From contig NZ_CP018171.1 in NCBI RefSeq assembly GCF_001889605.1, positions 2,316,501 through 2,380,500 of the forward strand: a DNA stretch of 64,000 nt, given 5' to 3'. Source of the DNA: Aquibium oceanicum (GTDB lineage: Bacteria; Pseudomonadota; Alphaproteobacteria; Rhizobiales; Rhizobiaceae). The stretch's first letter is position 1; each line of letters starts with the position of its first letter. Shown piece after piece: positions 23,994-33,639 of this stretch. Position numbers and translations under genes: made by a program. The notes below the pieces were generated by a model. That model searched no databases and had not been told where the DNA came from. It worked only from the letters and a program-made list of their open reading frames with translations.

Positions 23994-24011
23994 ATGATTG
24001 ACGTACCTCAC
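23994..24011. promoter_or_regulatory. Imperfect LacI-type operator over the regulator's own promoter
   Basis: ATGATTGACGTACCTCAC matches 14 of 18 positions of the perfect palindrome at 25136-25153. It overlaps a -35 TTGACG (23998-24003) that is 17 bp from a -10-like GATATT (24021-24026). Autoregulation of the LacI gene is inferred. Confidence 0.6.
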
Positions 24012-24049: not shown

Positions 24050-25075
24050 ATGCGTCCGACAGTCAACGACATCGCGAAAGCCGCGGGCGTCAGCCTCGCC
24101 ACGGTCGACCGCGTCCTGAACGCCCGTTCGGGCGTGACGGAAAAGACCGTCCAGCGCGTCAACGCCGCCATCGACCAGCTCGGCTACGTGCGCGACGTGA
24201 CGGCGGCGAACCTCGCGCGGCAGAGACGCTACCGGCTCGCCTTCGTGCTGCCCGAGGCGCCGGAGCTGTTTGTCGCCACCCTGCGCGAGGCGCTGTCGGA
24301 GGCGGGCAGGAGTTCCGCAGCCGACCGCACGGAGATCCGCACCCTGTCGTTTCCCGCCGGCAATCCGCATGCGCTGGTGCGCACGCTGCGCACCCTGAAC
24401 GCCGGTAACACCGACGGCGTCGCGATCTTCGCGCCTGAAACGCCGCACGTCCGCGATGCCATCGCGCGCCTGAAGAGCGACGGGGTGCCGATCGTGGCGC
24501 TCGTTTCGGACCTCCCGAGCACCGGTAGAGACCATTTCGTCGGCATCGACAACATCGCCGGAGGGCGCACGGCCGGGTTCCTTATGGGCAAATTCCATGG
24601 AAAAAGCGGCGGATCCGTGATGGTTCTGGTCAGTTCCATGCAGGCTCGCGACAATGTCGAGCGACGTCTCGGCTTCGACCAGGTGATGGCCGAGAGCTTC
24701 CCCGAGATCGAGGTCCTGCCGTCGCTCGAAAGCCACGACGACGAGGAGATCACCGCCCGGGTCGTCTCGGAAGTTCTCGACGCGCGGCCGGATCTGACCG
24801 GAATCTACTCCGTCGGCCATGGCAGCCGGGCGCTCGTGGAGGTCCTGCGGACCCACCACCGCGCCCGCCAGCTGACCATCGTCGCGCACGAACTGACGAG
24901 CGTCACGCGCGAGGCGCTTAGAAGCGGTGTCATCGATGCAGTGGTCAGCCAGGACGTCGGCCATGTCGTGAGAAGCGCGCTGCGCGTCCTGCGGGCCAAG
25001 AGCGACGGGGTCGGGATCGTTCCGGCGCAGGAACGCATCCGCATCGAGATCGTCGTTCGCGAAAACCTATCCTGA
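24050..25075 (+). CDS. LacI-family transcriptional regulator of the ABC/DAK operon
   Basis: A 341-residue regulator. The N-terminal HTH is TVNDIAKAAGVSLATVDRVLN, with hinge helix and GYVRDVTAANLARQ. The remaining 270 residues form a type I periplasmic-binding-like effector domain (VGIDNIAGGRTAGFLMGKF, VMVLVSSMQARDNVERRLGF). The ATG at 24050 follows GGGAG; the adjacent TTG at 24047 is also in frame. It is divergent from the AraC gene and directly upstream of the transporter operon. Related operators at both promoters suggest it represses both until its sugar-like inducer binds. Confidence 0.92.
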   Translation: MRPTVNDIAKAAGVSLATVDRVLNARSGVTEKTVQRVNAAIDQLGYVRDVTAANLARQRRYRLAFVLPEAPELFVATLREALSEAGRSSAADRTEIRTLSFPAGNPHALVRTLRTLNAGNTDGVAIFAPETPHVRDAIARLKSDGVPIVALVSDLPSTGRDHFVGIDNIAGGRTAGFLMGKFHGKSGGSVMVLVSSMQARDNVERRLGFDQVMAESFPEIEVLPSLESHDDEEITARVVSEVLDARPDLTGIYSVGHGSRALVEVLRTHHRARQLTIVAHELTSVTREALRSGVIDAVVSQDVGHVVRSALRVLRAKSDGVGIVPAQERIRIEIVVRENLS

Positions 25076-25130
25076 TTCCCCGTATCCACTGTCTCTCCAG
25101 GCATGGAAACATTCCCCTGCGGAAACGCGA

Positions 25131-25159
25131 TTGACATGAGGTACGTACCTCATCTAGTC
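25131..25159 (+). promoter_or_regulatory. Promoter of the ABC/DAK operon
   Basis: A consensus -35 TTGACA (25131-25136) is followed 17 bp later by a poor -10 near CTAGTC (25154-25159). The spacer is filled by an operator palindrome. The start codon of the binding protein is at 25206, after GGGAGGA. Confidence 0.55.
25136..25153. promoter_or_regulatory. Perfect 18-bp palindromic operator
   Basis: ATGAGGTACGTACCTCAT is a perfect palindrome with a central CG, the usual form of LacI-family sites. It lies exactly between the -35 and -10 elements of the transport operon, where repressor binding would block RNA polymerase. A 14/18 copy lies before the adjacent LacI gene. Confidence 0.8.
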
Positions 25160-25205
25160 TCCTCTGCGTAGGCGTTGCGTTTGCACCCACTCGGGAGGAT
25201 CCATC

Positions 25206-26531
25206 ATGAAACATGCCCATCTGGCGGCAGTCGCCGCCATCTCGATCACGGCCGCGCTGTCGGCGAATTCGGCGCAAGCCGAAGACCTCACCCTCTGCTG
25301 GGCCGCCTGGGACCCGGCGAATGCCCTTGTCGAGCTTTCGAAGGATTTCGAGGCGCAGTCCGGCCACAAGATGAGCTTCGAATTCGTGCCATGGCCGAAC
25401 TTTGCCGACCGTATGCTGAACGAGCTGAACTCCGGCGGCCAGCTCTGCGACCTGATGATCGGCGACAGCCAGTGGATCGGCGGCGCCGCCGAGAACGGCT
25501 GGTACGTGAAGCTGAACGACTTCTTCGATGCCAACGGCATCAAGATGGACGACTTCATCGACGCGACCGTGACCGGATACGCCGAATGGCCGAAGAACAC
25601 GCCGAACTACTGGGCGCTGCCGGCCTTCGGCGACGTCGTCGGCTGGACCTACCGCAAGGACTGGTTCGAGCGCCCTGAAATCCAGACAGCCTTCAAGGAG
25701 AAGTACGGCCGCGACCTCGCGGTGCCCAAGACCTTTGCCGAACTGAAGGACATCGCAGAATTCTTCCAGAAGCGCGAGATCGACGGCAAGACCGTCTACG
25801 GTGCCTCGATCTACACGGAGCGCGGCTCGGAAGGCATCACCATGGGCGCGATGGACGTGCTCTATTCCTTCGGCTTCAAGTACGAGAACCCGGACAAGCC
25901 CTATGACATGGAAGGCTATGTCAACGGTCCGGGCGCCGTGGCGGGGCTCGAATACTACAAGGCGCTCTATGATTGCTGCGTCGCGCCGGGCACGTCAAAC
26001 ACCTACATGTCCGAAGGCATCGACGCCTTCAAATCGGGCCAGGTGGCGCTGCAGATGAACTTCGCCTTCACCTGGCCGGGCTTCGAGACCGACATGGACG
26101 TCGGCCGCGGCAAGACCGGGTATTTCGCCAACCCGGCCGGTCCGGACGGCGAACAGTTCGCCCAGCTCGGCGGGCAGGGCATCTCGGTCGTGGCCGCTTC
26201 CTCGAAGCAGGATGCGGCGTTGGAGTACATCAAGTGGTTCGCCCAGCCCGACGTGCAGGCCAAGTGGTGGTCGATGGGCGGCTTCTCCTGCCTGAAGGCG
26301 GTGACTCTCGCGCCCGACTTCCCGCAGAGCCAGCCCTACGCGCAGACCTTCCTCGACTCCATGGCGATCGTGAAGGACTTCTGGGCCGAGCCGTCCTATG
26401 CCACACTCCTTCAGGACGCGCAGAAGCGCTTCCACGACTACGTGGTGGCCGGGCAGGGGACGTCGCAGGAGGCGCTCGACGGCCTCGTTGCGGACTGGAC
26501 CGAGACCTTCGAGGATGAAGGCAAGCTCTGA
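25206..26531 (+). CDS. ABC transporter sugar-type solute-binding protein
   Basis: A 441-residue periplasmic binding protein (SBP family 1, cluster of carbohydrate binders). The Sec signal peptide is MKHAHLAAVAAISITAALSA, with cleavage likely after NSAQA. Mature sequence starts EDLTLCWAAWDPANALVELS; KTFAELKDIAEFF and ASIYTERGSEGITMG are typical of the family. It delivers a small carbohydrate-like solute to the two permeases encoded next. The kinase at the end of the operon suggests a keto-triose or keto-tetrose, but specificity cannot be read from sequence. Confidence 0.94.
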   Translation: MKHAHLAAVAAISITAALSANSAQAEDLTLCWAAWDPANALVELSKDFEAQSGHKMSFEFVPWPNFADRMLNELNSGGQLCDLMIGDSQWIGGAAENGWYVKLNDFFDANGIKMDDFIDATVTGYAEWPKNTPNYWALPAFGDVVGWTYRKDWFERPEIQTAFKEKYGRDLAVPKTFAELKDIAEFFQKREIDGKTVYGASIYTERGSEGITMGAMDVLYSFGFKYENPDKPYDMEGYVNGPGAVAGLEYYKALYDCCVAPGTSNTYMSEGIDAFKSGQVALQMNFAFTWPGFETDMDVGRGKTGYFANPAGPDGEQFAQLGGQGISVVAASSKQDAALEYIKWFAQPDVQAKWWSMGGFSCLKAVTLAPDFPQSQPYAQTFLDSMAIVKDFWAEPSYATLLQDAQKRFHDYVVAGQGTSQEALDGLVADWTETFEDEGKL

Positions 26532-26559
26532 CAGGACGACCAAGTCCTGAGGATACCGT

Positions 26560-26579
26560 CGGGTCCGCGCGCGGACCCG
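26560..26579 (+). promoter_or_regulatory. Intercistronic hairpin between binding protein and permease genes
   Basis: CGGGTCCGCGCGCGGACCCG is a perfect palindrome in the 71-bp gap after the binding-protein gene. Such stems commonly stabilise the upstream message or attenuate read-through, giving more binding protein than permease. No T-run follows. Confidence 0.55.
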
Positions 26580-26602
26580 GCGGCCCCCGCAGAGAGACGA
26601 AC

Positions 26603-27550
26603 ATGACACACAGCCCCATCGAGCGCGTCGCCTTCGCCACACCGCCTGCCATCGCATCGCGCGCGCGGGGACTGTCGGACAGGGCGCTGGCCTGGATCTT
26701 CGTGACCCCGACCATTGCGCTGCTTCTTGCGATCAACATCTTCCCGCTGGTCTGGACCATCCGGCTGAGCCTGACCAACTACCGGGCCAACCGGGCCAAT
26801 GCGGAGCTGGAATGGGTCGGCATCCGCAACTACACCCGCATTCTCACCGACGGCGACATCTGGCTGTCGATGCAGGCGACGGCGCATTTCCTGATCTGGA
26901 CCATCGTCCTGCAGGTGGCGATCGGCTTCGCGCTCGCCTGGCTGATCAACCGGAAGTTCAAGGGCAACGATCTGTGGACCACGATCATCGTGCTGCCCAT
27001 GATGCTGTCGCCCGCCGTGGTGGGTAACTTCTGGACCTTCCTCTACCAGCCGCAGATCGGCCTATTCAATTACGTGGTCTCCTTCTTGACCGGCATCGAT
27101 CCGTCGTCTTTCTCCATGATCGGCGACGTCTCGTTGGCGCCCTGGTCCATCGTCATCGTCGACACCTGGATGTGGACGCCGTTCGTGATGCTGATCTGCC
27201 TGGCGGGCCTGCGCTCCATCCCAGACTACATCTACGAGGCCGCGGCCATCGACCGCGCCTCGCCCTGGCGCCAGTTCTGGACCATTACCGTGCCCATGGT
27301 GCTGCCCTTCCTGATGCTGGCCGTGCTCTTTCGCGGCATCGAGAACTTCAAGATGTTCGACATGGTGACGCTGCTCACCGGCGGCGGACCCGGCTCGACC
27401 ACCGAACTCACCTCGATCAACCTGAAGCGCGAGGCCTTCGAGAAGTGGCGGACCGGCTATTCTTCGGCCTACGCCATCATCCTGTTCGTGACCGTCTTCG
27501 GCCTCGCCTCGATCTATGTGAAGGCGCTGAACAAGGTGAAGCAGCGATGA
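26603..27550 (+). CDS. ABC transporter permease (MalF/UgpA type)
   Basis: A 315-residue inner-membrane permease with six predicted helices. It begins MTHSPIERVAFATPPAIASR and has a long first helix, WIFVTPTIALLLAINIFPLVW. The EAA loop that contacts the ATPase is YIYEAAAIDRASPWRQFWTI. It forms the membrane pore together with the next gene, which it overlaps by 4 bp (ATGA). Paired with two ATPases, it would give a heterotetrameric importer core. Confidence 0.95.
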   Translation: MTHSPIERVAFATPPAIASRARGLSDRALAWIFVTPTIALLLAINIFPLVWTIRLSLTNYRANRANAELEWVGIRNYTRILTDGDIWLSMQATAHFLIWTIVLQVAIGFALAWLINRKFKGNDLWTTIIVLPMMLSPAVVGNFWTFLYQPQIGLFNYVVSFLTGIDPSSFSMIGDVSLAPWSIVIVDTWMWTPFVMLICLAGLRSIPDYIYEAAAIDRASPWRQFWTITVPMVLPFLMLAVLFRGIENFKMFDMVTLLTGGGPGSTTELTSINLKREAFEKWRTGYSSAYAIILFVTVFGLASIYVKALNKVKQR

Positions 27551-28485
27551 GCGGCTATTCCATCACGGAGGCGTCTCCGCGGCAGAAGTGGATCGCGGGC
27601 CTGCTCGTGGCTGCCTATACCATCGTGACGCTGGTCCCGCTGTTCTGGATCGTCGCCACGGGTTTCAAGTCGCCGAGCGACGCCATTGCCTATCCGCCGA
27701 AGGTCGTCTTCGAGCCGACGCTCGAGGGTTACGTCAACCTGTTCACCACGCGCACACGCATGAACCCCGACCAGCTCGAGGAACTGGGACCGCCGCAGAC
27801 CTGGTACGACCGCATCGTGCGCCAGTACGACATGGTGATCTCCGGACCGTCCCGGTTCGGCGAAAGGTTCCTGAACTCCGTCATCATTGGCTTCGGCTCG
27901 ACCTTCCTGTCTATCTTCCTTGGCACCTTGGCGGCCTACGCCTTCTCGCGTTTCAAGGTGCCGCTGAAGGACGACCTCCTGTTCTTCATCCTCTCCACCC
28001 GGATGATGCCGCCGATTGCCGTGGCGATCCCGATCTTTTTGATGTTCCGCACGCTCGGGCTTTCGGACACGCATCTCGGCATGATCCTGCTCTATACGGC
28101 GGTGAACATCTCGCTTGCGGTCTGGCTGCTGAAGGGGTTCATCGACGAGATCCCGCGCGAATACGAGGAGGCGGCGCTGATCGACGGCTATTCGCGTTTC
28201 CAGGCGTTCTACAAGGTCGTGCTGCCGCAGGCAGCAACCGGCATCGCCTCGACCGCGATCTTCTGCCTGATCTTCTCGTGGAACGAATACGCCTTCGCGG
28301 TGCTGCTGACCTCCGGCACGGCGCAGACCGCGCCGCCGTTCATTCCGACCATCATCGGCATCGGCAAGGACTGGCCCGCGGTCGCCGCCGGCACCACGCT
28401 GTTCCTGATCCCGGTGATGGTGTTCACCATCCTCCTGCGAAAGCACCTGCTGCGCGGCATCACATTCGGGGCGGTGCGCAAATGA
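27547..28485 (+). CDS. ABC transporter permease (MalG/UgpE type)
   Basis: A 312-residue permease starting at the ATG that overlaps the previous stop. Helices include AAYTIVTLVPLFWIVATGF and VFTILLRKHLLRG near the C terminus. The EAA loop is EIPREYEEAALIDGYSRFQA. An unusually long extracytoplasmic loop (about residues 50-110, PPKVVFEPTLEGYVNLFTTR and on) precedes the second helix. The stop overlaps the ATG of the next gene. Confidence 0.95.
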   Translation: MSGYSITEASPRQKWIAGLLVAAYTIVTLVPLFWIVATGFKSPSDAIAYPPKVVFEPTLEGYVNLFTTRTRMNPDQLEELGPPQTWYDRIVRQYDMVISGPSRFGERFLNSVIIGFGSTFLSIFLGTLAAYAFSRFKVPLKDDLLFFILSTRMMPPIAVAIPIFLMFRTLGLSDTHLGMILLYTAVNISLAVWLLKGFIDEIPREYEEAALIDGYSRFQAFYKVVLPQAATGIASTAIFCLIFSWNEYAFAVLLTSGTAQTAPPFIPTIIGIGKDWPAVAAGTTLFLIPVMVFTILLRKHLLRGITFGAVRK

Positions 28486-28787
28486 GACAGCCTTTTTCCC
28501 CGGACGACACGCTGACGAAGGCGGAACGCGACGCCGAAAAGTCCCTGCCGCCGCCGGATGCGGCGGCCTCCGGCGAACGGCCAAAGGCACGCTATCGCAT
28601 TCACCCGGCACAGCGGATCTTCGTTCGCGGGCCGTGGGAGATGGCGGCGTCGATCACGATCGGCGTCGGCGTGGTGATGCTGATGCAGCCATTCTTCATG
28701 TGGGCCTATTCCTGGTCCTTCCTCGTCACGCTGGTGGGCACGGTCTCGTTCATCATCGTCAGCCACTTTCCGGAGGGCGAGGGATGA
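28482..28787 (+). CDS. Small two-helix membrane protein of the ABC operon
   Basis: A 101-residue protein with a charged N-terminal cytoplasmic segment (about 1-50; RYRIHPAQRIFVRGPWEM), then two close membrane helices: SITIGVGVVMLMQPFFMWAY and SWSFLVTLVGTVSFIIVSHF. It overlaps the genes on both sides by 4 bp, so it is part of the translationally coupled operon. I do not recognise the family. The position recalls small membrane proteins (such as DUF2160) in glycerol ABC operons, but the sequence is not obviously the same. It may be an accessory transporter subunit. Confidence 0.8.
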   Translation: MRQPFSPDDTLTKAERDAEKSLPPPDAAASGERPKARYRIHPAQRIFVRGPWEMAASITIGVGVVMLMQPFFMWAYSWSFLVTLVGTVSFIIVSHFPEGEG

Positions 28788-29188
28788 CCGCCGCGCCGTC
28801 CCCCGAGGTCGCGGAGGTCTTCGCGCGGATGCCCGAGCCGATCCGCGACCAGGCGCTGGCGCTGCGCGCGCTGGTGCAAGAGGCGGCGGCAAGCATTGAT
28901 GGCGTGAAGCTCGTCGAGACGCTGAAATGGGGCGAGCCTGCGTATCTGCCGGGCCGCGCCGGCACCACGGTGCGGATCGGCTGGGACCGGAGCAGCGGCG
29001 ACGTCCGGCTTCTGGTCAACTGCCAGACCACGCTGGTCGAGCATTGGCGGACCCGGTTCGATGGCCGGCTGGCCTTCGAAGGCAACCGCGCGGTGGTCGT
29101 GCCGGTAGCTGCACCGCTCGATGTGCCGGCCTTGCGCGCCTGCATCGCCGATGCGCTGACCTATCACGCATCGAAGCGGAGGAATTGA
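28784..29188 (+). CDS. DUF1801 family protein
   Basis: A 134-residue protein with the DUF1801 (YdhG-like) pattern: EVFARMPEPIRDQALALRAL, VKLVETLKWGEPAYLPGRAG, then LLVNCQTTLVEHWRTRF. The family has an alpha/beta fold of unknown role, often annotated as iron chaperone-like. Its start overlaps the upstream stop, and it ends one base before the first ATPase gene, so it is embedded in the transport operon. Its contribution to uptake is unclear. Confidence 0.85.
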   Translation: MTAAPSPEVAEVFARMPEPIRDQALALRALVQEAAASIDGVKLVETLKWGEPAYLPGRAGTTVRIGWDRSSGDVRLLVNCQTTLVEHWRTRFDGRLAFEGNRAVVVPVAAPLDVPALRACIADALTYHASKRRN

Positions 29189-29189
29189 C

Positions 29190-30308
29190 ATGGCCCAGAT
29201 CGTCATCCGCAACCTGCGCAAGGAATTCGGCGACTTCGTCGCGGTGCGGGAATCCGACTTCACCATCGAGGACGGCGAGTTCTTCATGCTGCTCGGCCCG
29301 TCGGGCTGCGGCAAGACGACGACGCTGCGCATGATCGCGGGGCTGGAGCTTCCGACCTCGGGGCAGATCCTGCTCGACGGCAAGGACGTCGCGCAGGTGC
29401 CGGCGAGCGCACGCGATATCGCCTTCGTGTTCCAGATGTTCGCGCTCTATCCGCACATGAACGTGCGGCGCAACATCTCCTATCCGCTGGTGAGCCAGGG
29501 TATGCCGCGCGCCGAGGTTCGCCGCCGCGTCGGCGAGGTGGCCGGTATCCTCGGCATCGAGGACATTCTCGACCGTCCCGTCGGCGGCCTGTCGTCGGGC
29601 GACCGCCAGCGCGTCGCGCTCGGCCGCGCGATCGTGCGCGAGCCGAAGGCCTTTCTGATGGACGAGCCGCTCGGCGCGCTCGACGCCGAGTTCCGCGAGC
29701 GCATGGCCGAGGAACTGCGTGCCCTGCACGACCGCATGGGCGCCACGACGGTCTACGTGACCCACGACCAGCTCGAAGCCATGCAGATGGGCGACAAGAT
29801 CGTCGTGATGAACCGGGGCGTGGTCGAACAATGGGGCACGCCGCAGGACATCTACGATTTTCCCGCGACCATGTTCGTGGCCGACTTCATCGGCTCGCCA
29901 CCCATGAACTTTTTGCGCTTCGACGAGCGGGTAGCGTTGGGTGCCCGGGCGGTGCGGCTCTCGGGCGTGGAGGTTCCGGTGCCTCAGGTGCTGGAGGCGA
30001 CGAGCGGCGCGCGGGCAGCGCTGGGCGTGCGGCCGGAGCACGTCCGGCTCAACGACGACGGCGCCTATCGGGGCGAGGTGGTCGCGGTGGAGTATCTCGG
30101 CACGACGCAGATCGTCACCCTCGACACCCCGAACGGCGACCTGAAGGCCCGCATCGCCTCCTCCGATGTGGTCAAGGTGGGAGAACGGGTGGGCCTCTCC
30201 TTCGTGACGCAGACGCTGTCGCTGTTCGACGCCGAAACCGGCCGGGCGCTGGCCCTCGATCGCGAGCCGGTGCGCGGGCGCGAAACCTCGGAGCAGGCGC
30301 ATGGCTGA
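29190..30308 (+). CDS. ABC transporter ATPase 1 (UgpC/MalK type)
   Basis: A 372-residue ATPase. Walker A is GPSGCGKTT (residues 36-44), the Q-loop region is VFQMFALYPHMNV, Walker B is FLMDEPLGALD and the switch His is in YVTHDQLEAMQMGD. The signature is LSSGDRQRVALGRA, a departure from LSGGQ, at about residue 135. A TOBE-type C-terminal regulatory domain follows (ALGVRPEHVRLNDDGAYRG). It overlaps the second ATPase gene by 8 bp. The two probably form a heterodimer. Confidence 0.95.
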   Translation: MAQIVIRNLRKEFGDFVAVRESDFTIEDGEFFMLLGPSGCGKTTTLRMIAGLELPTSGQILLDGKDVAQVPASARDIAFVFQMFALYPHMNVRRNISYPLVSQGMPRAEVRRRVGEVAGILGIEDILDRPVGGLSSGDRQRVALGRAIVREPKAFLMDEPLGALDAEFRERMAEELRALHDRMGATTVYVTHDQLEAMQMGDKIVVMNRGVVEQWGTPQDIYDFPATMFVADFIGSPPMNFLRFDERVALGARAVRLSGVEVPVPQVLEATSGARAALGVRPEHVRLNDDGAYRGEVVAVEYLGTTQIVTLDTPNGDLKARIASSDVVKVGERVGLSFVTQTLSLFDAETGRALALDREPVRGRETSEQAHG

Positions 30309-31296
30309 CGTCGTGCTCTCCTCCGTCTCCAAGCGGTTCGGCGACACGCTTGCGGTCGACGGCATGGACCTCTCGGTGCCCGACGGCGCCTTCGTCGTCC
30401 TGTTGGGTCCGACCGGCGCCGGCAAGACGACGACGCTGCGCCTCATCGCCGGGCTGGAACAACCGGACACGGGCGACATCCTGATCGACGGGCGCAGCGT
30501 GCTGGCCGACAGCCCGGCGCAGCGCAACATCGCCATGGTTTTCCAGCAGTATTCGCTCTATCCGCACCTGACGGTGCGCCAGAACCTCGAATTCCCGCTG
30601 AAATCGCCGATCCTGAACACGCCGCCGGCGCAGATCGCGCGGCGCGTCGCCGAGGTGGCCGAGGTTCTGCAGATCGCCCACAAGCTCGACAACAAGGCGA
30701 CCGCGCTCTCCGGCGGCGAGATGCAGCGCGTCTCGATCGGCCGCGCGCTGGTGCGCAAGCCGCAGGTCTTCCTGATGGACGAGCCGTTGAGTTCGCTCGA
30801 CGCGAAGCTGCGCGCCGACCTGCGCGTGGAACTGAAGCGCATCCAGTCCGACCTCGGCTCGACGCTCGTCTACGTCACCCACGACCAGATCGAGGCCATG
30901 ACGATGGCGACCCATGTCGGCGTGCTCGACGCCGGTCGGCTGGTCCAGTTCGGCACGCCGCGCGAGATCTACGAAAACCCGGTCAGCGTCTACGTGGCGA
31001 CCCGGCTCGGCCAGCCGCGCATCAACACGCTGCCGGCGGGACTGTTCGGAGCCGCACCCGCGGGCGCGCAATGGATCGGCCTGAGACCCGAGCATATCCG
31101 CGAAGGCGAGGGGCGGCAGGCCCGCGTCACGCGCGTCGAACATCTCGGCGACCAGACGCGGCTTCACCTTGCCATCGAGGGCCATCCGCTGGTCACGCTC
31201 GCCGATCCGCACACGCCGCTCAGGGGCGGCGACGTGATCTCGCTGAGGCCAGAAGAGCCGCTCTATTTCGACGCCCATGGCGACCGTGTCATCTGA
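30301..31296 (+). CDS. ABC transporter ATPase 2 (UgpC/MalK type)
   Basis: A 331-residue ATPase distinct from its neighbour. Walker A is GPTGAGKTT (36-44), signature LSGGEMQRVSIGRA (about 136), Walker B FLMDEPLSSLD and switch YVTHDQIEAMTMA. The C-terminal TOBE-like part is shorter (IGLRPEHIREGEG). It has the canonical LSGG signature that ATPase 1 lacks. Two ATPase genes in one sugar-type operon also occur in rhizobial glycerol (GlpST) transporters. Confidence 0.95.
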   Translation: MADVVLSSVSKRFGDTLAVDGMDLSVPDGAFVVLLGPTGAGKTTTLRLIAGLEQPDTGDILIDGRSVLADSPAQRNIAMVFQQYSLYPHLTVRQNLEFPLKSPILNTPPAQIARRVAEVAEVLQIAHKLDNKATALSGGEMQRVSIGRALVRKPQVFLMDEPLSSLDAKLRADLRVELKRIQSDLGSTLVYVTHDQIEAMTMATHVGVLDAGRLVQFGTPREIYENPVSVYVATRLGQPRINTLPAGLFGAAPAGAQWIGLRPEHIREGEGRQARVTRVEHLGDQTRLHLAIEGHPLVTLADPHTPLRGGDVISLRPEEPLYFDAHGDRVI

Positions 31297-31306
31297 GGAG
31301 GGATGC

Positions 31307-32953
31307 ATGACGCAGTTCATCAACAGCAAGGAAGCCCTGGTCGTCGAGGCGATCGACGGCCTCCTGCGCGGCTCGGGCGGGCGGCTCGCCCGGCTCGACG
31401 GCTATCCGCACATCAAGGTGGTGTTGCGCACCGACTGGGACAGGTCGAAGGTGGCGATCGTGTCGGGGGGCGGCTCCGGCCACGAGCCCGCCCATGCCGG
31501 CTTCGTGGGGCAGGGTATGCTGACGGCGGCGGTCTGCGGCGACGTCTTCGCCTCGCCATCGGTCGACGCGGTGCTCGCCGCCATCCTGAGCGTCACCGGC
31601 AAGGCGGGCTGCCTGCTGATCGTGAAGAACTATACGGGTGACCGGCTGAATTTCGGGCTCGCGGCCGAGCGCGCCCGCGCCTTCGGGCTTGCCGTCAACA
31701 TGGTGATCGTCGACGACGACGTGGCGCTGCCCGACCTGCCGCAGGCGCGCGGCGTGGCCGGCACGCTGTTCGTGCACAAGGTCGCCGGTGCGCTGGCCGA
31801 GGCCGGCGAGAGCCTGGAGGCCGTGACGGCGGCCGCGAAACGCGTCATCGATGGCGTCGTCTCGATCGGCATGTCGCTCGATACCTGCACCATCCCCGGT
31901 TCGCCGAAGGACGAGCGCATCCGCTCCGGCTTCGCGGAACTCGGCCTCGGCATCCACGGCGAGGCGGGCGCCGAACAGGTGAGCTTCGAGGATGCCAGGC
32001 AGGCGATGGAAACGGTGATCGGCCGGCTGGCGCCGCGCATGAAGCCCGGCCCGCACGTCGCGCTGCTCAACAATCTCGGCGGCGCCACGCATCTGGAAAT
32101 GTCGGTGCTGGCCGAGGAACTGGCGCGCTCTACCATCGCCGGGCAGATCCGCTGGATCGTCGGGCCGGCCGCGATGATGACCTCGCTCGACATGCAGGGG
32201 TTCTCGCTGTCGCTCCTGCCGCTGTCGAAGGAGGCCGAGACGGCGCTGCTGGCGCCGGTGGTGCCGTGGGCCTGGCCGGGGCTCGCCTCGTTCGGCCGGG
32301 TGGAGATCCTGCCGCTGCCGGACGGGCTGACGCCGATCCAGCCGATGCCGTCGGCCAACGCGGCCAAGCGGGAACTCATCAAGGCCTGCTGCGACATCCT
32401 GATCGCCGCCGAGGCGGATCTCAACGCGCTCGACGTGCGGGCCGGCGACGGCGACACGGGCTCGACGCTCGCCACGGCCGCGCGCGCGCTGGTCGCCGCG
32501 CTCGACCGGCTGCCGCTGGCCGACCTCACCCAGCTCTACCGCGCGGTCGGCATGGAACTCAGCCAGACCATGGGCGGATCGTCGGGCGTGCTGCTGGCGA
32601 TTTTCTTCACCGCGGCCGGCGACGCCTCGGCCGGCGGCAAGGACTGGATCTCCGCGCTCGGCGCCGGGCTCGACCGGATACGCCAGGTGGGTGGCGCCGG
32701 CCCCGGCGACCGCACCATGGTGGATGCGCTGATGCCGGCGCTGGCAGCACTCCCCGAGGGGCTCGGCGCGGCGGCCGTGGCGGCCCGGCAGGGGGCGGAC
32801 GCCACCGGTTCGATGAAGAAGGCCAAGGCCGGCCGCGCCAGCTACATCTCGCAGGATCGGCTCGCCGGCGTCAACGACCCGGGAGCCGAGGCGGTCGCCC
32901 GGCTGTTCGAGCGGCTGCACAAGGCAAGGCAGGTCGGAGAGGCCGCCGAGTAG
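31307..32953 (+). CDS. Fused DhaK-DhaL dihydroxyacetone-type kinase
   Basis: A 548-residue ATP-dependent kinase. The N-terminal DAK1 (DhaK) domain has SGGGSGHEPAHAGFVGQGML and His217 in LGIHGEAGAEQ, the residue that binds the substrate ketone covalently in known DhaK. The C-terminal DAK2 (DhaL) domain from about 355 has RAGDGDTGSTLATAARAL, MGGSSGVLL and GDRTMVDAL, which hold Mg-ATP. Likely substrates are dihydroxyacetone or a related ketose such as erythrulose. It is the last gene of the LacI-controlled transport operon, 10 bp after ATPase 2. Confidence 0.95.
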   Translation: MTQFINSKEALVVEAIDGLLRGSGGRLARLDGYPHIKVVLRTDWDRSKVAIVSGGGSGHEPAHAGFVGQGMLTAAVCGDVFASPSVDAVLAAILSVTGKAGCLLIVKNYTGDRLNFGLAAERARAFGLAVNMVIVDDDVALPDLPQARGVAGTLFVHKVAGALAEAGESLEAVTAAAKRVIDGVVSIGMSLDTCTIPGSPKDERIRSGFAELGLGIHGEAGAEQVSFEDARQAMETVIGRLAPRMKPGPHVALLNNLGGATHLEMSVLAEELARSTIAGQIRWIVGPAAMMTSLDMQGFSLSLLPLSKEAETALLAPVVPWAWPGLASFGRVEILPLPDGLTPIQPMPSANAAKRELIKACCDILIAAEADLNALDVRAGDGDTGSTLATAARALVAALDRLPLADLTQLYRAVGMELSQTMGGSSGVLLAIFFTAAGDASAGGKDWISALGAGLDRIRQVGGAGPGDRTMVDALMPALAALPEGLGAAAVAARQGADATGSMKKAKAGRASYISQDRLAGVNDPGAEAVARLFERLHKARQVGEAAE

Positions 32954-33121: not shown

Positions 33122-33305
33122 TCGTCATCCTCGGCCGACCGGAGCGCAGCGCAGGGAGAGCCGAGGATCCATGCCTGAGAGGTAGTGACGGGTGGGGTGT
33201 CGGAGAGGGCGCGCTTCCTGCGCCGTCTCACGCTCCCGCGATTCTCAGGTCTGGATCCCAGGGTCTGCGCCTCCGCTAACGCTTGGCTTCGCCCTGGGAT
33301 GACGA
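33122..33305. repeat. MITE/REPIN-like repeat, copy 1
   Basis: A 184-bp unit bounded by TCGTCATCC and its inverse GGATGACGA. Inside are a second inverted pair (GAGGATCCATGCCTGAGAG and CTCAGGTCTGGATCC). It lies on the upstream side of the GIY-YIG gene. The preceding 32954-33121 shows nothing recognisable. Confidence 0.8.
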
Positions 33306-33351
33306 AGGGGGTGCGGATTGCGCTCGCATGCGGTTCCGCTACGCTTCTCAT

Positions 33352-33639
33352 ATGACCGGCTACGTCTACATGACCGCGAGCCAGAAGCGCGGGACGATCT
33401 ACATCGGCGTGACCAGCGATCTCGGACGCCGTATCCCGGAGCACAAGTCCGGCGAGGGATCGCGTTTCACCGGGAAGTACCGGGTCACGCGGCTTGTCTG
33501 GTACGAGGAACACTTCGACATCCGCGACGCCATCCAGCGCGAGAAGTCGCTGAAGCGGTGGCGCCGCGACTGGAAGATCGCGCTGATCGAGAGCATGAAC
33601 CCGCACTGGGAAGAACTGTTTCGCGGGACGGGCTGGTAG
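33352..33639 (+). CDS. GIY-YIG nuclease superfamily protein, single domain
   Basis: A 95-residue protein starting MTGYVYMTASQKRGTIYIGV. The GYVY...YIG core, the catalytic-Arg segment DLGRRIPEHK and the metal-binding Glu region QREKSLKRWRR define the single-domain (UPF0213-like) GIY-YIG group. The 95-residue length is full for this class. It would nick or cut DNA in the cytoplasm, but no member of this exact type has a settled role. It is bracketed by copies of the same inverted-end repeat. The ATG at 33352 is chosen because it starts the domain. Confidence 0.9.
   Translation: MTGYVYMTASQKRGTIYIGVTSDLGRRIPEHKSGEGSRFTGKYRVTRLVWYEEHFDIRDAIQREKSLKRWRRDWKIALIESMNPHWEELFRGTGW

Follow-up and report, generated by a model that had tools for sequence, protein, structure and literature searches.

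A window of 64,000 nucleotides from the 5.3 Mb genome of Aquibium oceanicum (contig NZ_CP018171.1, positions 2,316,501 to 2,380,500; the window is the whole stretch analysed, and coordinates count from its first letter) contains nine tightly packed genes in one order, all on the plus strand, that we read as probably encoding a scavenging system for dihydroxyacetone (DHA). The first gene, lacI (24050–25075), specifies a LacI-family repressor with Pfam LacI helix-turn-helix and Peripla_BP_4 domains. It is followed by genes for a periplasmic solute-binding protein (25206–26531; SBP_bac_1), permease A (26603–27550) and permease B (27547–28485), both matching BPD_transp_1, a small membrane protein whose two helices were recognized by eye (28482–28787), a DUF1801 protein (28784–29188), ATPase 1 (29190–30308; ABC_tran, TOBE_2 and OB_MalK), ATPase 2 (30301–31296; ABC_tran and TOBE_2) and a fused DhaK–DhaL kinase of the ATP type (31307–32953). 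From permease A on, adjacent genes overlap by 4, 4, 4 and 8 bp or are separated by gaps of 1 and 10 bp. A perfect 18-bp palindrome, ATGAGGTACGTACCTCAT, presumed to be an operator, lies downstream of lacI, ahead of the binding-protein gene (25136–25153); a second, weaker LacI-type operator site upstream of lacI (23994–24011) is unlike it at 4 of 18 positions and has 3 mismatches to the 16-bp core. Binding protein, paired permeases and a MalK-like ATPase with a TOBE domain are together the composition of a CUT1-type ATP-binding cassette (ABC) importer. The coordinates and Pfam domains bear out both the gene order and the overlapping or close spacing proposed in a first-pass annotation of the letters alone, and the operon as observed is confirmed as real.

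With Dak1 and Dak2 fused in a single protein (Pfam), the kinase has the domain layout of ATP-type DhaKL enzymes. Phosphoenolpyruvate (PEP)-dependent DhaKLM systems combine split subunits, a GDGDH-type DhaL and an EIIA/HPr/EI relay; the window kinase is fused and carries GDGDTG. Its His217 (within GIHGE) and GDGDTG, which we take to be the substrate-binding histidine and the nucleotide motif, are intact, as the first-pass annotation had stated for the histidine and the DhaL Mg-ATP motif, and neither varies in any of the 84 aligned kinase rows, a count that includes the window and three duplicate loci. Searching the genome with the window kinase (E ≤ 0.001) returned only the kinase itself. The closest solved structure is that of the Citrobacter DHA kinase (1un9; 496 bits, residues 4–539), an ATP-dependent enzyme (1un8, 1un9) that likewise fuses DhaK to DhaL and has the same histidine and the same GDGDTG region; the window kinase differs in being coupled to an ABC importer of its own. 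It is 48.5% identical to plasmid-borne Citrobacter proteins annotated as glycerone kinases.

A genome scan that used 17 aligned binding proteins as query found at least 564 stretches encoding a relative, the best 80 of which were kept; by record label, these 80 comprise 78 from Alphaproteobacteria, one from Bacilli (Exiguobacterium) and one without a class. The locus labelled Exiguobacterium profundum (L061) clusters with Rhodobacter-type sequences, and its label is probably wrong. At E ≤ 1e-130 the binding protein has matches in 22 of the 385 genomes searched from its class and 25 of the 398 from its phylum, its own genome counted in both. Rhizobium tropici CIAT 899 is among the bacteria with both binding protein and kinase. 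To the best 80 loci we added 49 chosen by hand toward lower identity, giving 129 loci with binding-protein orthologs of at least 59% identity; four with an exact duplicate binding protein stay in this set and were dropped from the operator counts below. Locus L025 was set beside the 129 as a 130th, and orthologs outside them include those of genomes G002, G033, G050, G223, G488, G533, G547, G590, G612, G615 and G689.

In 123 of the 129 loci a DHA kinase gene lies downstream on the same strand, no more than 12.5 kb from where the binding-protein frame starts. The other six reach a contig edge within 4.2 kb of the end of that frame, and the window kinase begins 4.8 kb past it. Because binding protein and same-strand kinase recur in this way, with the remainder cut by contig ends, the operon is not a chance arrangement; this combination of known parts is widespread and apparently undescribed. 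The coupling is constant, whereas the kinase type is not: 76 loci have only an ATP-type fused DhaKL, 32 a PEP relay kinase with split subunits plus EIIA, HPr and EI, nine have both (so that relay genes occur in 41 of 129 loci overall), and six have other arrangements. One of these six, L084, is a relay locus truncated after HPr; L106, L142, L143, L144 and L147 encode DhaL and DhaK with no relay genes in the locus, although L147 meets a contig edge shortly after DhaK, beyond which relay genes are possible. The kinase of L025 is of the ATP type, in line with the 129. On a carefully built tree of 83 binding-protein rows, parsimony requires at least seven changes of kinase type (states ATP, relay-like and both), with two changes for the ATP-only label and five for the label 'both'. 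This tree leaves out the six loci with no kinase in view, same-label rows more than 94% alike and all but three paralogs, and pools the DhaL-plus-DhaK loci with the relay type; it was used in place of a quick first tree, which gave higher counts as cut-off loci carried a label of their own.

L142, L143 and L144 belong to three genomes of 1.4 Mb (99, 94 and 94% complete), with a guanine–cytosine content of 34–35% at the loci, in which the importer accompanies split DhaL and DhaK. HPr and EIIA-Man, the two relay proteins searched for (EI was not), were each found in none of the three; in G322 and G662 both are present elsewhere. We take the three genomes to resemble the marine HIMB59/AEGEAN-169 group. 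Several sugar ABC transporters are reported for that group in the part of PMC10308909 available to us, and the term dihydroxyacetone is absent from that article.

The two accessory proteins named in the first-pass annotation proved to be of different standing. The two-helix protein belongs to the core of the importer cluster, being present in 123 of 129 loci; four of the remaining six are truncated, and it was possibly missed in L083 and L084. It has no Pfam match above cut-off. Assignment to DUF2160 was rejected, the two being unalignable with a profile comparison probability of 0.9%; the genome's own DUF2160 gene sits away from the operon. The DUF1801 protein, inserted between the two-helix gene and the ATPases, is optional and rare. 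Its Pfam match is marginal (28.9 against a cut-off of 27.2 bits), and it occurs in 4 of 130 loci (L027/L133, which are one genome, L134 and L025). L026, the nearest relative, lacks it, as does L132 from the window's genus, and on these grounds it was rejected as a required part. We call it optional rather than unrelated because L025, a locus from another family (10.0–13 kb) whose binding protein is just 62% identical, has it in the same slot and in a closer copy, at 144 bits to the window protein as against 85 and 91 within the window's genus. A mosaic history is possible.

A LacI relative is encoded in 73 of the 76 ATP-only loci. The exact palindrome core, TGAGGTRCGYACCTCA, occurs once in the window's genome; allowing up to 3 mismatches, 62 of the 70 distinct ATP-only loci that encode LacI have it, compared with 0.74% in shuffles (bases mixed within 50-base blocks). 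Some of the eight misses may arise because the upstream stretch was set by the open frame and not by the true start. The same core is found in one of three ATP-only loci without LacI in view, 4 of 32 relay loci, none of nine with both kinases and none of five others. Because the consensus was derived from the same ATP loci, the figure of 62 of 70 is not independent, and the relay loci are the cleaner test: the four with the core are precisely the four that also have a LacI gene. The palindrome travels with the LacI gene, and we presume it to be the operator. At up to 3 mismatches, the window's genome yields 16 sites and the reversed control 28. The only site with 2 mismatches (L166) was rejected as a second operator, since it is not intergenic but overlaps a start codon in same-strand overlapping frames, and it was taken as chance. 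A 153-residue protein (for example, L087:19226–19678) is encoded in 30 of 32 relay loci and in all nine with both kinases, and not in ATP-only loci. One member scanned had no Pfam match; judged by eye, it resembles a helix-turn-helix regulator and may take the place of LacI.

The first-pass annotation had suggested an ABC importer dedicated to a triose or tetrulose with its own kinase. A dedicated importer for a short ketose is supported, and the choice narrows to DHA, with erythrulose fitting less well. DHA is the better supported of the two because the importer is coupled to DHA kinases of both ATP and PEP types, the loci lack a triosephosphate isomerase (TIM) relative, no RpiB-family protein was found and the exact LacI operator site is single. 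DHA-phosphate goes straight into central metabolism, so no further dedicated enzyme or isomerase would be needed. LerK, a DhaK-family kinase, acts in tetritol pathways alongside LerI and DerI, which are TIM-like and RpiB-like. In the portion of PMC10733421 available to us, LerK is named as an erythrulose kinase, which would suit a ketotetrose as substrate here; that portion also describes a dehydrogenase and two isomerases, LerI and DerI, acting on the erythrulose phosphates. The operon has no linked pair of TIM-like and RpiB-like isomerases. No relative of the genome's TIM was found in 137 loci searched (eight of them paralog loci), and the one TIM-family match in the genome is distant from the operon. 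An RpiB-family search found nothing in the window's genome and gave matches in 7 of 14 control genomes. Erythrulose as first choice was therefore ranked below DHA, and the absence of an RpiB-family protein moved our estimate slightly up for DHA and slightly down for other short carbonyl sugars.

Several observations weigh against DHA as the ligand. The kinase scores below the NCBIfam TIGR02361 glycerone kinase cut-off (485.8 versus 574.95 bits), and we therefore name it a DhaK-family kinase, with DHA activity presumed from sequence. DHA kinases also take other short carbonyl compounds. One divergent DhaKL lies beside sugar-alcohol-type genes, so that the kinase family alone does not fix the substrate; the gene contexts of divergent DhaKL on plasmids are mixed and do not decide the matter. 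In the nine loci with both kinases (L095, L096, L108, L112, L113, L114, L117, L124 and L148), the two types would be redundant if both act only on DHA, and the ATP-type copies are changed at two motif positions, S57 to A in eight of nine and D79 to E in nine of nine, as against 4 and 7 of 75 other rows; these ATP-type kinases may act on a different substrate. The same observation lends some weight to the possibility that importer and kinase serve another short carbonyl sugar (D-glyceraldehyde, L- or D-erythrulose, or a hydroxyacetone-like compound), with the altered copies reflecting two substrates. Glyceraldehyde, like DHA, needs no isomerase, and the isomerase results above tell against erythrulose; overall we regard this alternative as unlikely.

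Structure prediction for the binding protein (mean pLDDT, the predicted local distance difference test, 91.8) indicates a MalE-like fold, the best Foldseek match being 6dtq at 23% identity. Also unfavourable to DHA, the best 50 Foldseek rows contain no close solved relative (16–23% identity), and the ligands they name are mostly sugars bigger than a triose. The ligands of the nearest solved folds are oligosaccharides or sulfoquinovosyl compounds, as would be expected if the importer took a larger sugar, or a derivative of DHA, and a breakdown product were the substrate of the kinase. At such low identity the fold match is uninformative on the ligand: it gives no ligand name, and the attempt to read the ligand from structure was dropped. 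A survey of the flanks of the best 80 loci (up to 10 kb each, less at contig ends; representatives named by Pfam) found as families shared by at least 5 of the 80 a Mesorhizobium synteny block, an aldehyde dehydrogenase (5) and a DctM transporter (5), the remaining shared frames looking by eye like shadows. No hydrolase or aldolase was recognized among these families outside the Mesorhizobium synteny, and we consider import of a larger compound highly improbable. Another route would import glycerol or another polyol, oxidized to DHA by a dehydrogenase encoded elsewhere, with the kinase acting last. The rhizobial glycerol importer GlpSTPQUV has a matching composition of two permeases, two ATPases, a small membrane protein and a binding protein, and the window genome's DUF2160 locus holds such a set. 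However, the small protein of GlpSTPQUV is a DUF2160 protein that cannot be aligned to the window's two-helix protein, and the separate DUF2160 locus, with another gene order and a binding protein that scores just 49.6 bits against that of the operon, would itself serve glycerol. The aldehyde dehydrogenase of five loci is the only dehydrogenase family among those shared flank families, and we think the polyol route very unlikely.

If DHA is the ligand, the binding protein would catch it in the periplasm, and the two different permeases and two different ATPases would drive its import with ATP. In the kinase, the DhaK half would hold the ketone through His217 while the DhaL half moves phosphate from ATP, and the resulting DHA-phosphate would enter central metabolism directly. 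LacI would repress the operon at the palindrome before the binding-protein gene and at the weaker site before lacI, until relieved by a signal molecule, probably DHA or DHA-phosphate. Here, we infer the ligand, the direction of transport, repression and its effector.

The closest described arrangement is blr3566–blr3577 of Bradyrhizobium diazoefficiens (PMC5017801), which has a matching order of binding protein, two permeases, small protein, two ATPases and DHA kinase subunits, sequences not having been compared by name; it differs in that its kinase is driven by PEP and has an EI, HPr and EIIA of its own. As far as the available part of that article goes, these genes shift expression together and no substrate is named for the importer. 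The PTS (phosphotransferase system)-dependent DhaKLM of the haloarchaeon Haloquadratum likewise couples uptake of free DHA to phosphorylation; in the available parts of PMC5496347 and PMC9684190, uptake is credited to DhaKLM itself and no ABC importer is named. Tetritol pathways share a kinase acting on a short ketose and differ in the dehydrogenase and isomerase steps noted above. Among the matches listed from the open-licence literature (subscription journals and regulon databases were outside the scope), none names a DHA ABC importer, and the available parts of PMC3333776, PMC4941405, PMC11366302 and PMC12718374 contain nothing on DHA import. The suggestion of an undescribed pathway applies to the importer and its coupling to the kinase, which are the apparently new part, and not to the conversion of DHA to DHA-phosphate, which is known chemistry.

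We give about even chances that this is the first ABC-type, ATP-driven system for scavenging free DHA, widespread in alphaproteobacteria including streamlined, AT-rich, marine-plankton-like genomes of 1.4 Mb, in which one conserved importer is served by interchangeable kinases driven by ATP, a dedicated PEP relay or, in the streamlined genomes, another donor. If so, free DHA would be a nutrient for which organisms in soil and sea compete, its environmental levels would merit measurement, and a substrate could be given to importers labelled merely as sugar transporters in many bacteria that live in soil, with plants and probably in the sea. The kinase type has been exchanged repeatedly while the importer stayed the same, which also shows how bacteria can switch the phosphate donor and keep the substrate.

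Elsewhere in the same genome, locus L022 encodes a 44%-identical paralog of the binding protein with a similar importer; no DHA kinase or other core gene beyond the transporter genes was found at L022 or at nine similar loci (other L022 neighbours were judged by eye). On a Sagittula stellata plasmid (L181, 5980–10638), a DhaKL 59.7% identical to the window kinase follows an ABC importer of another kind, which has one permease and may be an independent route of import. Downstream of the operon, the window contains an open reading frame (33283–33639) that by eye is GIY-YIG-like.

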